64,000 bases of DNA from Natronorubrum sediminis (GTDB taxonomy: Archaea; Halobacteriota; Halobacteria; Halobacteriales; Natrialbaceae), in assembly GCF_900108095.1 (NCBI RefSeq), contig NZ_FNWL01000002.1:788748-852747 (forward strand), given 5' to 3'. Shown here piece by piece: positions 34,054 to 41,071 of this stretch. The notes below the pieces were generated by a model. The model did not search any database, was not told the DNA's origin, and saw only the letters and a list, made by a program, of their open reading frames with translations. How positions within the stretch are numbered: position 1 is the stretch's first letter; the number at the start of each line of letters is the position of its first letter. A program made the position numbers and the translations under genes.

Positions 34054-34443
34054 TCAGCCGAGGTACGCCGTCGCGTCCAGTTCGACACGAACGTTTTCGG
34101 GAAGCCTCGAGACCTCGACGCAGACGCGGGCAGGCGGTGCCTCGCCGAATTTCTCGCCGTAAGCCTCGTTGACCCGCTTGTAGTCCGCGAGGTCGGTCAG
34201 GTAGACGGTGACTTTGACGACGTCCGCGAGGCCGTCGCCGCCGGCTTCCTCGACCACGCTCGCGATGTTCTCGAGGACGCGGTCGGTCTGGGCCTGAATG
34301 TCCCCTTCCACGACGTCGCCCGTCTCGGGATCGGCGGGGCCGTAGCCCGAGACGTAGAGGGTGTCGCCGGCCAGTACGCCCTGGGAGTATGGGTTGTCGT
34401 TGCTCGGTGCGCCGTCAGTTTCGATGGGTTCCGTGTCGGACAT
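34054..34443 (-). CDS. ridA: RidA (YjgF/YER057c/UK114) enamine/imine deaminase
   Basis: The 129-aa protein matches RidA length and motifs: NPYSQGVLAGDTLYVSGYGP, VVKVTVYLTDLADYKRVNEAYGEKF and PPARVCVEVSRLP, with the conserved catalytic arginine in PPAR. RidA hydrolyses reactive enamines/imines released by PLP dehydratases. A threonine-dehydratase-like enzyme is encoded at 25649 and aminotransferases flank the gene. It lies 62 bases downstream of the aminotransferase gene at 34506 and upstream of M20 paralogue B. Confidence 0.92.
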   Translation of the reverse strand: MSDTEPIETDGAPSNDNPYSQGVLAGDTLYVSGYGPADPETGDVVEGDIQAQTDRVLENIASVVEEAGGDGLADVVKVTVYLTDLADYKRVNEAYGEKFGEAPPARVCVEVSRLPENVRVELDATAYLG

Positions 34444-34505: not shown

Positions 34506-35879
34506 TCAGGCCTCGACTTCGACGGCGTGATCGATCGCCTCAAGGACGATATCCAGGGCCGTCTCCGCCAGATCGCGGGTGAGCACGAGGGGCGGGATGA
34601 TTCGCAGGATGTTGCCGTGACGGCCGGCCGTCCAGATGAGGACGCCGTGTTCGAAACAGTACTGTTGAATCGCGTCGACAATGTCGTCGCCCGGGTTGCC
34701 GTCGCTGTCGACGAACTCGGCCCCGATGAACAGTCCCTTTCCACGCACGTCTGCGAGGTGGTCGGTCTCGTCCGCCGCCTCGAGCAGTCGGTCCTGAATG
34801 TACTCGCCGAGGTCTCGAGCGTGCGCGAGGAGGTCGTGGTCCTGGATGTACTCGATGGCGCGAGTACCGGCACGCATGCCGACGACGTGGCCGCGGTAGG
34901 TTCCGGCGTGGTCTCCCGAACCCCAGGTGTCGAGTTCTTCTTTGTACATCGTCGCCGAGAGCGGGAAACCGACGCCGCCCAGTGCTTTCGCCGAGGTCAT
35001 CGCGTCAGGCGTGACGCCCTCCCAGTCGCTGGCCCACCACTCGCCGGTGCGCCCGAGACCGGTCTGAATCTCGTCGAAGACGAGCGTCACGTCGTTGTCG
35101 TCGGCGAGGTCGCGCAAGCCCTGCAGGAAGCCCGCCGGCGGGGTGACGATGCCGCCCTCTCCCTGAATCGGTTCGACGATGATTCCGGCCGGGTTCGCGA
35201 GGCCACCGTATGGATCCTCGAGAATAGCCTGGACCTCCTCGAGGGCGTGGTCGACCGACGCTTCGGGCGACTTCCCGTCTCGGAACGGATAGGGGTAGGG
35301 CGCGTGAACGACGTCGGAGAGCAACGGCGCGTAGTGTTTCTTCAGCTTCGTGTTCGAGGTGACGCTCATCGCACCCGTCGTCGCGCCGTGATAGGAGCCG
35401 CGGAAGGCGATGAGGCCGTCACCCTCAGAGTTGTACTTCGAGAGCTTGATCGAGGCCTCGATGGCGTCGCTGCCCGTCGGGCCACCGAAGACGACGCGGT
35501 TGTTGCCCTGTAACCCCTCCGGGGCGATTTCGTCGAGTTTCTCGATCAACTCGAGTCGCGCGTCCGTCGGGAAGTCGACCGTGTGGACGAACTTGTCGGC
35601 TTGCTCGTGGACGGCCTCGAGCACGTAGGGGTTCGAGTGGCCGACGTTGAGCACGCCGATACCGGCGAAGAGGTCGATGTAGGTGTTGCCGTCGGCGTCC
35701 CGAACGGTCGCTCCTTTGCCCTCCTCGAAGGCGATTGGAATGTCGTTGGGATAGGCAACCGCGCTACTGTCGATATCCGCCTGTTTCTCGAGTAACGCCT
35801 GCGTGTTCGGTCCCGGGACGTTGTCGACGTTCGGTGCGTCGTCGAAGTGAATCTCGTCTATCGGCGGTCCTGCCGTCAT
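34506..35879 (-). CDS. Class III aminotransferase, diaminobutyrate-type candidate
   Basis: The 457-aa PLP enzyme has its lysine in [10 protein letters not shown] (Lys298), [13 protein letters not shown] and [17 protein letters not shown]. The N-terminal [11 protein letters not shown] and [17 protein letters not shown] fit diaminobutyrate or GABA transaminases (EctB/DoeD relatives). In the ectoine route DoeD converts diaminobutyrate to aspartate semialdehyde, so this is the best candidate for that step. It is a different subgroup from the aminotransferase at 28329. The ridA and M20 B genes follow on the same strand. The upstream region has half-sites resembling the doeA operator. Confidence 0.83.
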
Positions 35880-37010: not shown

Positions 37011-37751
37011 ATGGCTTCGTGGAAGCGGGATTTCGCGAGTGGGCTGATCGTCCTCGGCCCCATTCTCGTCACCCTCTACGTTATTTACTGGCTCTACGGC
37101 TTCATCGCCGGGATTACACCCGGACTCATCCTCGAGGCAGAAGCCCTCGAGCCACTGATTCCCGGTGACTCCGGACAGGCCCAGCAGTCACGCGAGCAAC
37201 TCGCGCAGTTCCTTCGCGTCGTCGTCGCGTTGACCGTCTTTACCATCCTCACCTTTTCCGTCGGCTACCTCATGCGAACCGCCGTCGGCGGCCTCTTCGA
37301 ACGGGTCGTCGACAACGTTGCGAACCGCGTCCCTGTTATGCGAGTCGTCTACAACGCCTCGAAGATGGCCGCCGAAACTGCTTTTGGCGAACAGGAATCA
37401 CTCCAGACGCCCGTCAAACTCGAGACGTGGAACGGGCTGCGAATGACGGCGTTCAAAACCGGCAAAACGACCGACGACGGCCGCGAAGTATTGTTCTTGC
37501 CGACCTCACCGAACATCACGACGGGATTCGTCATCGAAGTCGAATCCGATCGCATCACCGTCCTCGAAGAAGACGTCGAAGACGCCCTCACACGCGTCCT
37601 GAGCGCCGGATTCGGCGACGCAAACCGAACGCGGGGAATGGAGGCCGGCGTCTCCATCGACGTCGTCGACGAAACGAACGTCGACTCACTCGAGGAATCT
37701 GCCCGACGAGAGTTCGACCGAGAGCCTACCGATAACGCTGACGACGACTGA
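37011..37751 (+). CDS. DUF502 membrane protein
   Basis: The 246-aa protein has two membrane helices (about residues 10-35 and 68-92) and the DUF502 pattern: MASWKRDFASGLIVLGPILVTLYV, then RVPVMRVVYNASKMAAETAF and a beta-rich cytoplasmic domain with PTSPNITTGFVIEV. DUF502 proteins are widespread in bacteria, archaea and plants (LCV/COV-like) and have no proven molecular function. The C-terminus is acidic. It follows proline dehydrogenase by 39 bases and converges with the PLP protein gene at 37760. Confidence 0.88.
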   Translation: MASWKRDFASGLIVLGPILVTLYVIYWLYGFIAGITPGLILEAEALEPLIPGDSGQAQQSREQLAQFLRVVVALTVFTILTFSVGYLMRTAVGGLFERVVDNVANRVPVMRVVYNASKMAAETAFGEQESLQTPVKLETWNGLRMTAFKTGKTTDDGREVLFLPTSPNITTGFVIEVESDRITVLEEDVEDALTRVLSAGFGDANRTRGMEAGVSIDVVDETNVDSLEESARREFDREPTDNADDD

Positions 37752-37759
37752 CCGCAGAA

Positions 37760-38950
37760 TTAGATTCCCTGACTCATCAGGTGACTGCGCAACACGTCGC
37801 CTTCCTTGTTTCCGGCAGTCGTGTTCACGATGACGACCGTCTCGTCGCCGTCGAACGCGCCGTTTTCGGCGAGTTGCCAGACGCCAGCGGCTGCCGTGGC
37901 CGGACTCGGTGCCATCTCGAGACCCTCGTGGGCGGCGACCTGCACGCCAGCCTCGAGAATGTCCGTGTCGTCGACGGCCACTGCGCCGCCGTCGGTTGCC
38001 GCAAGCGCCTCGAGCACGCGTGAACTCGCCGGCGGATCGGCAATCTCGAGTTCGCCACAGATCGTGTCTGGCGTCTCGACCGGTTCGTGCGTCTCGCGGT
38101 CGGCCTCGCTAGCCTCGACGATGGGTGCACAGCCCGCCGGTTGGGCGGCGTAGAGGCCCGGGAGTTCGTCGACGAGACCGAGTTCGCGGAGTTCGGTCGC
38201 GGCTTTGTACGCCCCCGTGAGACCGAGGCCGAGGCCGGTCGGATAACAGACGACGTCGGGGACCGACCACTCGAGTTGCTCGACGAGTTCGTACAGCGTC
38301 GTCTTCGCGCCCTCGTGGCGGTAGGGGTTGTCGAACGCCTGGAGAGAGTACCAGCCGTCGTGTTCGTTACACGCTTCCTCGAAGGCACCGACGGCGTCGT
38401 CGTAGCGGCCACCGACGACGTTCATGTCGCCGCCGTGGACGTTGATCATCGCCTTGTTCGAGAAACTCGAGCGCGAGGGGACGTAGGTGTGTGACTCGAG
38501 GCCGGCCCGACCGGCGTAGGCAGCGGCCGACTGTCCGCCGTTGCCCGTCGAGGCCAGTGCGACGTCGTTCGCGTCGCGACCGGCGCCAGCAGTGACGGCG
38601 AGCGATTGGCCGCGGTCCATCGTCGATCCCGTCGGATTTCGGCCCTCGTCTTTGAGGTAGACGGAGTCGACGCCCAGTTCGTCCGCGAGGGAGGGACAGG
38701 GAACGAGCGCGGTCGCCCCTTCGTTCATCGTCACCGCGGACGAACGCGAGAACGGGAGCAGTTCTTCGTAGCGCCACTGCGAGTCGAACGGTCGGGACTC
38801 GAATGTTTCGCGACTCACGTCGATGGCGTCGTAGTCGTAGGCCGGGTCGAGCGCCCCGCCGCAGTCGGGACACGCCTGCACGTCGGGGCCGTCGTGGATC
38901 GATCCACACTCGAGACACTCGAGGCCGAGAAATGCGTCCGTCAGTTCCAT
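37760..38950 (-). CDS. Threonine synthase-like protein lacking the PLP lysine
   Basis: The 396-aa protein has the N-terminal zinc-ribbon of archaeal threonine synthases (CLECGSI, then CPDCGGALDP) and a fold-type II PLP domain. The normally invariant NPTGSFKDRG motif reads NPTGSTMDRGQ, so the Schiff-base lysine is Met111. The phosphate loop (STGNGGQSAAAYAG) and glycine-rich segment (YPTGLGLGL) remain. A conventional threonine-synthase reaction is therefore unlikely unless another lysine substitutes (for instance in FSNKAMI). It may be a binding or regulatory homologue or a family with different chemistry. Fold assignment is firm; function is unknown. Confidence 0.78.
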   Translation of the reverse strand: MELTDAFLGLECLECGSIHDGPDVQACPDCGGALDPAYDYDAIDVSRETFESRPFDSQWRYEELLPFSRSSAVTMNEGATALVPCPSLADELGVDSVYLKDEGRNPTGSTMDRGQSLAVTAGAGRDANDVALASTGNGGQSAAAYAGRAGLESHTYVPSRSSFSNKAMINVHGGDMNVVGGRYDDAVGAFEEACNEHDGWYSLQAFDNPYRHEGAKTTLYELVEQLEWSVPDVVCYPTGLGLGLTGAYKAATELRELGLVDELPGLYAAQPAGCAPIVEASEADRETHEPVETPDTICGELEIADPPASSRVLEALAATDGGAVAVDDTDILEAGVQVAAHEGLEMAPSPATAAAGVWQLAENGAFDGDETVVIVNTTAGNKEGDVLRSHLMSQGI

Positions 38951-39104: not shown

Positions 39105-39281
39105 TTAGTGGTCGCCGGTCTTCGACTGCCACTCGTACTCGCGGCGTTTGGCCGATTTGCCAAAGCCACACGACGAGCAGACCTTCTTCTTGGTGTGATA
39201 CGACTTCTCTCCGCAGCGACGGCACTTCGTATGCGTCGTCTTGTTCTTCTTTCCTTGGCTCGGGGTTCCTGCACCAGTCAT
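39105..39281 (-). CDS. rpl37e: 50S ribosomal protein L37e
   Basis: The 58-aa basic zinc-ribbon ribosomal protein starts [17 protein letters not shown] and has zinc-binding cysteines in CRRC (20-23) and CSSC (35-38), then [13 protein letters not shown]. Its ATG overlaps the lsm stop (ATGA at 39278-39281). The lsm-rpl37e pair is a well-known archaeal operon. The length is typical. Confidence 0.95.
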
Positions 39282-39505
39282 GGAGTGATCGAAACGACGT
39301 TATCGCCGCGTATAATGGTTGTGTCTTCGGCCGGCGACGTCTCGCCAGTGTCGCCCTCGAGCGGGATTGTTACGTCCTCGAGGACGAGATTCATGTGTTG
39401 ATCGTAGCCGGCGAGGTCGCCGACGTACTCGTCGCCACTCTTGAGTCGTACCGTCACACGGTCGCCGAGCGACGCCTCGAGGACGTCAAGCGGTCGTCCA
39501 CTCAT
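39278..39505 (-). CDS. lsm: LSm (Sm-like archaeal) RNA-binding protein
   Basis: The 75-aa Sm-fold protein forms heptameric rings that bind U-rich RNA. Sm1 ([31 protein letters not shown]) and Sm2 ([13 protein letters not shown]) motifs are complete. The start MSGRPLDV is chosen because the upstream frame extends through non-coding-looking sequence. It precedes rpl37e with a 4-base overlap. Confidence 0.95.
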
Positions 39506-39724
39506 ATAACAGACCGCAGGTGATGGACACTTAATCGTACCGGTCCTGCGTCCGCAACGACCGGTTTGGACGGCGGTGATCGCTCGATTTCGCCAGTGAG
39601 TAGCACACCGATAGTGGCACCCGTCTGCCACGAAGTCGTTGATTCCACGACCGATCGTCTACTGCATCGCTTCGGCGACACACCCAACCCAACGGCTAAG
39701 TGCCCGCTCGTTGAGCCCTCGCTC

Positions 39725-40108: not shown

Positions 40109-41071
40109 GTGAACCTCTATCGTAGCGCCCGGACCGTTGCCGGGGCATCCGGCGATGACGTCATCGATTGGGAGTCGGCCGCCGACGCCGCGAAGGCGGT
40201 GACCGACCCCGGCTCGCTCGAGCTCGAGACGGGCGAGCGCGAGGCCTACGCTCGCGACGTGCGAGAGGCGCGAGACGCCGTGCGAACGGTGGCGAACGTC
40301 GAGTTCGACGTGCCCGACACCGTCGAGATCCAGAATCGCCACCACTGGATCGACGCCAACATCGCGACCTTCGAACGCGTGATGGGAACGCTCGAGCAGC
40401 AAGTCCCTCCGGGCACGTTCCCCGGCGTCGCCCGAACGATCAACACGGGCACGATGACCGTCCTTCTGGCCTTTCTTGGCCGGAACGTTCTCGGACAGTA
40501 CGATCCGCTGCTCCTCGCAGAGACGCCCGAAGACGACCACGCGCTGTACTTCGTCAGACCGAACATCCTGAAGGCTGCCCAGAAGTTGGACGTCGACCCC
40601 GACCGATTCCGCCGCTGGATCGCCTTCCACGAAGTGACCCACGCCGCGGAGTTCGGCGCCGCGCCGTGGCTCTCCGATCACCTCGAGTCGCGGATGGAAG
40701 CCGGCATCGCGACGCTCACGGAGGGCTCGTTTGATCGCGCTGCGTTCCGGGATCTCGACGCCGCGATGACGGTCGTCGAGGGCTACGCGGAACTGCTGAT
40801 GGATCACGCCTTCGACGACGAGTACGCGGATCTGCGTCGAAAACTCGACGCGCGACGGCAGGGTCGTGGCCCGCTTCAGCAACTGTTTCGTCGACTGCTC
40901 GGGCTTGGCCTCAAAGAGCGACAGTACGAGCGCGGAAAGAACTTCTTCGAGACCGTCGTCGAGAGCGCCGACCTCGAGACGGCGAGCGTCGTCTGGGAGA
41001 GCCCAGCACAGTTACCGACGCAAACCGAACTCGACGATCCGACGCTGTGGCTCCAGCGCGTCGATCGGTGA
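40109..41071 (+). CDS. Zinc-dependent metalloprotease-like protein (DUF2342/F420-associated type)
   Basis: The 320-aa protein has HEVTH at residues 174-178 (HExxH zinc motif) within RRWIAFHEVTHAAEFGAAPWL, and a later VEGYAELLMDHAF segment with the third ligand candidates, as in the family named coenzyme F420 biosynthesis-associated zinc metalloprotease. Family function is not settled. The start is GTG at 40109. It is mainly helical and has no signal peptide. The F420-type LLM oxidoreductase at 58443 shows the organism uses F420, but nothing links the two directly. Confidence 0.82.
   Translation: MNLYRSARTVAGASGDDVIDWESAADAAKAVTDPGSLELETGEREAYARDVREARDAVRTVANVEFDVPDTVEIQNRHHWIDANIATFERVMGTLEQQVPPGTFPGVARTINTGTMTVLLAFLGRNVLGQYDPLLLAETPEDDHALYFVRPNILKAAQKLDVDPDRFRRWIAFHEVTHAAEFGAAPWLSDHLESRMEAGIATLTEGSFDRAAFRDLDAAMTVVEGYAELLMDHAFDDEYADLRRKLDARRQGRGPLQQLFRRLLGLGLKERQYERGKNFFETVVESADLETASVVWESPAQLPTQTELDDPTLWLQRVDR

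Follow-up and report, generated by a model that had tools for sequence, protein, structure and literature searches.

The window (the whole stretch of 64,000 nucleotides that was analysed) encodes on its minus strand a threonine synthase (ThrC)-like protein of 396 aa, read in an uninterrupted frame from an ATG start (37760-38950), in which methionine occupies the position of the Schiff-base lysine. The gene, its neighbours and the features of its product are as follows:

37011..37751, plus strand: DUF502 gene, the convergent neighbour, also found at the loci of lysine-bearing orthologues
37760..38950, minus strand: gene for the lysine-less ThrC-like protein of 396 aa, a probable pseudoenzyme (from the open reading frame, PF00291, PRK08197.1, an AlphaFold2 model and structure matches)
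38609..38638, minus strand: motif NPTGSTMDRG, residues 105-114, whose normal form is NPTGS/T-F-K-DRG (translation and alignment)
38618..38620, minus strand: codon 111, ATG (Met; the plus strand reads cat), at the Schiff-base lysine position; AAG or AAA in 100 orthologues
38861..38917, minus strand: zinc-ribbon cysteines C12, C15, C27 and C30, intact in 75/81 lysine-less and 84/84 lysine-bearing orthologues
38540..38542, minus strand: N137, from alignment with ThrC; kept in 78% of lysine-less and 100% of lysine-bearing proteins
38222..38236, minus strand: PLP-phosphate-type loop GLGLG, residues 239-243, from alignment; partly decayed in lysine-less proteins (G243 in 68%, G240 in 1%)
38405..38443, minus strand: N170-R182 segment (N170, R182), putative second-function set, lost in 12/12 lysine copies of family f4
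38045..38071, minus strand: P294-E302 segment (P294, I297, G299, E302), putative second-function set, from comparison with the f4 lysine copies
37766..37777, minus strand: C-terminal M392-G395, putative second-function set from the f4 comparison, close to where the alignment with bacterial ThrCs ends
39278..39631, minus strand: LSm-domain gene, upstream, with an unsettled start of its reading frame; a syntenic marker at lysine and lysine-less loci
40109..41071, plus strand: Zincin_2 metallopeptidase-like gene with the motif HEVTHAAEFG, beside the LSm gene; a syntenic marker, about 80% identical across the family

By its modelled fold, the protein is a member of the PALP/fold-type II PLP superfamily: it matches PF00291 at 210 bits (5e-62), and the AlphaFold2 model (70 aligned sequences; pLDDT 96, pTM 0.94) finds its closest solved structure in Arabidopsis threonine synthase (2c2b, Z 50.1 over 390 aligned residues), with the Thermus thermophilus enzyme 1v7c at Z 48.0. 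Its standing as a threonine synthase is less secure. The score against PRK08197.1 (NCBIfam NF006050, threonine synthase), a name that is an annotation label and no tested activity, is barely above the cut-off (306.6 versus 303 bits), and that against the TIGR00260 thrC equivalog falls below it (147.5 versus 167.1 bits). For comparison, a lysine-bearing orthologue from the same genus (L021) reaches 390 bits with PRK08197.1, and a lysine-less protein of family f4 (L213) only 256.7, under the cut-off. The preliminary description, made from the letters of this stretch, had pointed to Met111 in lieu of the PLP lysine and to the preservation of the zinc ribbon and phosphate loop; the translation and the ATG codon bear out the former, and all four cysteines and the GLGLG loop are indeed in place. 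The remaining PLP-site residues recognised by alignment with Mycobacterium tuberculosis ThrC, namely N137, the 239-243 loop and T377, which we take to be the PLP contacts of solved ThrCs, are likewise all present. The Schiff-base lysine itself is missing, and we concur that PLP catalysis of the normal type is very unlikely without it. With these residues kept, non-covalent PLP binding or a weak activity could be possible in this particular protein.

Sequencing error or chance can be dismissed as the source of the missing lysine: the nearest relative, from another genome and 96% identical (L006), has threonine (ACG) at the same position, and the residue is absent from 81 of 181 orthologues, a set drawn from the class Halobacteria at more than 48.5% identity. 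Close homologues occur in 121/121 genomes sampled from the window's family and in almost every one of 145 taken from the class. Lys111 is retained in 100 of the 181 orthologues; the other 81 have T (29), A (22), L (11), R (8), G, V and Y (two each), and M, D, E, I and F (one each), and within the window's own family 52/120 distinct sequences lack it. The entropy of the position is 0 where the lysine is kept; in the lysine-less proteins it ranks 16th among the 396 columns. Hence, methionine is not a fixed replacement, as position 111 drifts freely and Met is found there solely in the window's genome among the 181 orthologues, and this same variability counts against a new chemistry centred on that residue. 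The loss of the lysine is real, and it is class-wide and repeated instead of being a single-strain property. Searches of the accessible literature returned no known lysine-less threonine synthase.

Lysine is the ancestral state, as outgroup paralogues carry it, and the orthologous group appears class-specific, since the best matches outside Halobacteria are just 34-40% identical. A separate group of 40-47% paralogues (L128-L131 from genera g5 and g16, and L132 from g29) has NPTNTFKDRG, with Asn for Gly, and lies on large plasmids (megaplasmids) in Natribaculum; a ThrC homologue of 38% identity, found in a different class of the phylum (G229:C7:11776-12894), has one in-frame TGA. Some haloarchaea are without a close orthologue (G122, and G121 with nothing nearer than 46%), and any second role of the protein is thus not essential everywhere. 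The presence of the lysine is itself not a safe mark of activity, and we dropped that equation on account of four proteins of genus g8 (L024, L028, L048, L056), which combine Lys in the motif NxTGTSKDRG with the pocket residues of lysine-less proteins. These are probably cases of a drifting codon (ACG/AAG) or intermediates; a reversion from ACG to AAG, or a lysine without function, is possible.

The first explanation to be weighed is that of a decaying pseudogene, to which the missing catalytic residue and the faster evolution of the lysine-less branches would point. However, every lysine-less orthologue found is full-length and devoid of internal stops, dN/dS across 21 independent lysine-less pairs is 0.06-0.23 (median 0.121, about 0.12; 0.096 for the window protein and its sister L006) against a median of 0.102 in 44 lysine-bearing pairs, and 42 columns are invariant across the 81 diverse sequences, including D112, R113, R160, K166, H172, R182, R211, D385 and R388. 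For the group as a whole, decay is therefore refuted, and we regard it as having next to no chance of being correct. These proteins have lost their catalytic residue and remain under purifying selection across lineages, as expected of a functional pseudoenzyme.

The lysine-bearing and lysine-less genes are positional orthologues. In the window's family (f1) both are flanked alike, with DUF502 and PRODH on one side and LSm, ORF39566 and Zincin_2 on the other, even inside one genus (L021 with Lys and L001 with Met, both g1). More broadly, an FAD amine-oxidase-like gene is divergent to the ThrC-like gene at 44 loci spread over families f1-f4 and f6-f9, and lysine-less loci with this arrangement occur in f1, f2, f3, f4 and f7. 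At loci L159-L219 the upstream, divergently paired FAD protein resembles phytoene desaturase/protoporphyrinogen oxidase and spans many haloarchaeal families. Beyond establishing position, the neighbours form no coherent set (LSm, DUF502, PRODH, FAD amine oxidase, a DtxR-like regulator, a LysE-like protein), and we abandoned gene context as a guide to function. A few kilobases from the ThrC-like gene, the window also carries a RidA-family gene (34054-34443, minus strand) beside a class-III aminotransferase gene (34506-35879, minus strand); RidA proteins act on the enamine/imine products of PLP enzymes.

How often the lysine was lost depends on the tree that is consulted. Mapped on a species tree from the single gene rpoA1 (87 genomes), the trait requires 20 state changes, with 16 independent contrasts on well-supported branches, and a one-off loss finds no support there. 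The gene's own tree from all columns needs only five changes and places nearly all lysine-less proteins in one clade. Taken with the many co-changing columns, this topology is what one would expect if all lysine-less proteins went back to one ancient lineage that spread through homologous replacement or differential loss of two old paralogues; the protein would still be a pseudoenzyme in that case. Against this stand the occurrence of both kinds at the same locus in five families, with one copy per genome in f1, and the behaviour of the residual columns: upon removal of the 116 most state-linked ones, the gene tree shows 16-17 changes, its topology follows taxonomy and the AU test rejects the grouping of the lysine-less proteins in one clade (p 0.00016, dlnL 181). 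Lysine-less proteins then fall with lysine-bearing proteins of their own genus or family, for example, L091 (Ala) with L052 (Lys), both g17, L172 (Arg) with L166 (Lys), and L103 and L106 near g16 and g21. Removal of random columns leaves 4-5 changes, and simulations of a true single clade stripped of 112 columns yield 6-8, versus 16 in the real data; as the columns were chosen by state the count is inflated, and these controls cover part of that inflation, with simulations stripped of about 180 columns reaching 8-14. Concordance of splits with the rpoA1 tree improves only from 19 to 23 of 83 after column removal. Convergence at many columns is the best explanation for the conflict between the gene and species trees. 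Hence, the sequence comparisons favour many parallel losses, fewer losses combined with allele replacement or recombination at the locus being possible, and we consider a single ancient lineage unlikely.

The loss of the lysine is accompanied by parallel changes in about 20 further columns, among them F110, A135, I183, T205, K215, M218, G240, M247, G300 and G307. They differ in mostly around 11-15 of the 16 independent contrasts with none in the opposite sense, and some have a preferred direction: A135 to Thr/Pro, I183 to Tyr/Phe, K215 to Ala and G300 to Glu. Could the protein be a lysine-independent enzyme, one that holds PLP with no Schiff base or uses a different side chain for a new chemistry in the cleft? 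The window protein retains N137, the glycine-rich loop and T377, the cleft residues D112, R113, R160, K166, H172 and R211 are invariant, and tryptophan synthase K87T has been solved with bound ligands (2tys). Yet the residue at 111 varies freely, and a comparison of columns found no gained conserved lysine in the 81 lysine-less proteins: the candidates for a substitute Schiff-base lysine (columns 100, 166, 216, 249 and 382) were rejected because they are lysines already present alongside Lys111. Further, six PLP-site residues are all intact in 88/88 lysine-bearing proteins and in just 41/81 lysine-less ones, at least one being lost in the other 40; the PLP site is thus not fully kept in about half of the latter, which leaves no single conserved PLP chemistry common to all. 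We hold such an enzyme to be quite improbable. In the lysine-less proteins as a group, these features rather suggest an absence of PLP catalysis.

Family f4 (Haloferacaceae-like) offers a view of the converse loss. In a sample of about 27 copies, 12 bear the lysine, and three of the genomes concerned also yielded a lysine-less copy. The ancestral neighbour adjoins just one of the 12 (L200); most have been relocated, and no common context was found among the relocated lysine copies. Eight residues (N170, R182, P294, I297, G299, E302, M392 and G395) that are 96-100% conserved in the 88 other lysine-bearing and the 81 lysine-less orthologues are changed in all or nearly all of these 12 copies. 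The simplest reading seems to be subfunctionalisation of an ancestral protein that had, besides a lysine-dependent role, a second one relying on these residues, a duplication having split the two between the lysine copy and the lysine-less copy, a pattern drawn from 12 related copies in one family and perhaps from one event.

The same genomes raise the prospect of a partner subunit, in which the lysine-less protein would activate or stabilise a lysine-bearing paralogue in a heteromer. In its favour are the coexistence of lysine and lysine-less copies of the same family in the three f4 genomes, the presence of at least one lysine-bearing ThrC paralogue in every genome tested and the fixation of the eight residues outside the lysine motif. 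On the other hand, these residues are equally fixed in single-copy lysine-bearing orthologues, and most sampled lysine-less genomes from families f1-f3 are single-copy at the orthologue level, which leaves only paralogues of 33-37% identity as partners, and the locus shows no linkage to any of these. On balance, we think this arrangement doubtful, if somewhat less so than a single ancient lineage.

The paralogues bear on a further point. Three additional ThrC-like genes with intact GSFKDRG (L002, L003, L004) are encoded in the window genome, the best of which lies on contig C3 and reaches 278 bits with TIGR00260 (cut-off 167), and homoserine kinase is encoded as well; the separate canonical ThrC that the preliminary description proposed to look for is accordingly present, and, given these genes, the window gene is not the sole ThrC of a prototroph, a circumstance that had been set against its reading. 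A strong separate ThrC above the same cut-off was found in 30/30 genomes tested, 27 of which are lysine-less at the locus. With such a gene and homoserine kinase at hand, the window gene is probably not the threonine synthase of its genome. In Haloferax volcanii, an insertion in thrC3 (HVO_2969), one of several paralogues, causes a growth defect that is rescued by the combination of threonine, glycine and serine (PMC4300041).

We therefore propose, with fair assurance, that this is a functional pseudoenzyme derived from an ancestral protein with two functions, of which PLP catalysis was repeatedly lost and a second, lysine-independent role was kept. The ancestor of Halobacteria would have possessed a PLP protein of the ThrC fold with the lysine in place, which was not the canonical ThrC and performed both a PLP reaction and a role independent of the lysine; the former would have been lost in place in many lineages and the latter would maintain purifying selection. 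This second role might operate via the old ligand cleft, where R211, K216, R160, K166, H172, D112 and R113 are nearly or fully invariant, and/or via the conserved segments 170-182, 294-302 and 385-396. In the alignment, R211 corresponds to the arginine of the ThrC motif NPxR, which binds the phosphate of the substrate, and since R211 and the neighbouring charged residues are invariant, the cleft may have remained a binding site for an anionic ligand. In its simplest form, the protein would bind a ligand or partner and act as a switch, with the opening and closing movement of ThrC but without turnover; a role as sensor or partner subunit is possible. A bolder version, which we advance tentatively and with the balance tilting against it, is that a bifunctional PLP protein dropped catalysis in parallel at least 16 times in one archaeal class, with the same pocket changes following each time; its hidden function would then be new to the fold, in signalling or ligand sensing, or would be that of a lysine-free enzyme.

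On our best reading, then, these proteins constitute a new group of pseudoenzymes built on a known fold, in which the same catalytic lysine was lost repeatedly from the same gene and locus, with the rest preserved, in some 80 sampled genomes. Sister species with and without the lysine open the non-catalytic roles of metabolic enzymes to experiment, through allele swaps in transformable haloarchaea. There is also a warning for annotation: of the members of this orthologous group that are called threonine synthase, about half are probably unable to act as one.

Measured against ThrC proper (EC 4.2.3.1; M. tuberculosis 2d1f, 1v7c and 2c2b), the window protein shares a near full-length fold (Z 44-50), a zinc ribbon before the PALP domain and most PLP-site residues. 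It differs in lacking the Schiff-base lysine, in having A-F in place of the ThrC N-S beside NPxR, in E302 at the position of the R of the TIATAIRIG motif, and in the separate ThrC encoded by its genome. Pseudoenzymes usually comprise one dead paralogue, and serine palmitoyltransferase includes such a catalytically dead paralogue in LCB1/SPTLC1, which activates or stabilises its partner. SAM acts as a switch on the threonine synthase of Arabidopsis (PMC3174156), which shows that the fold lends itself to allosteric switching. Catalytically dead paralogues support active partners in trypanosomatid deoxyhypusine synthase (PMC3663545) and, in the case of PDX1.2, in the synthesis of vitamin B6 (cited in PMC6522883). 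The haloarchaeal proteins resemble these two in being catalysis-deficient members conserved by selection; in contrast to the one fixed paralogue of those systems, the loss here recurs in single-copy positional orthologues.
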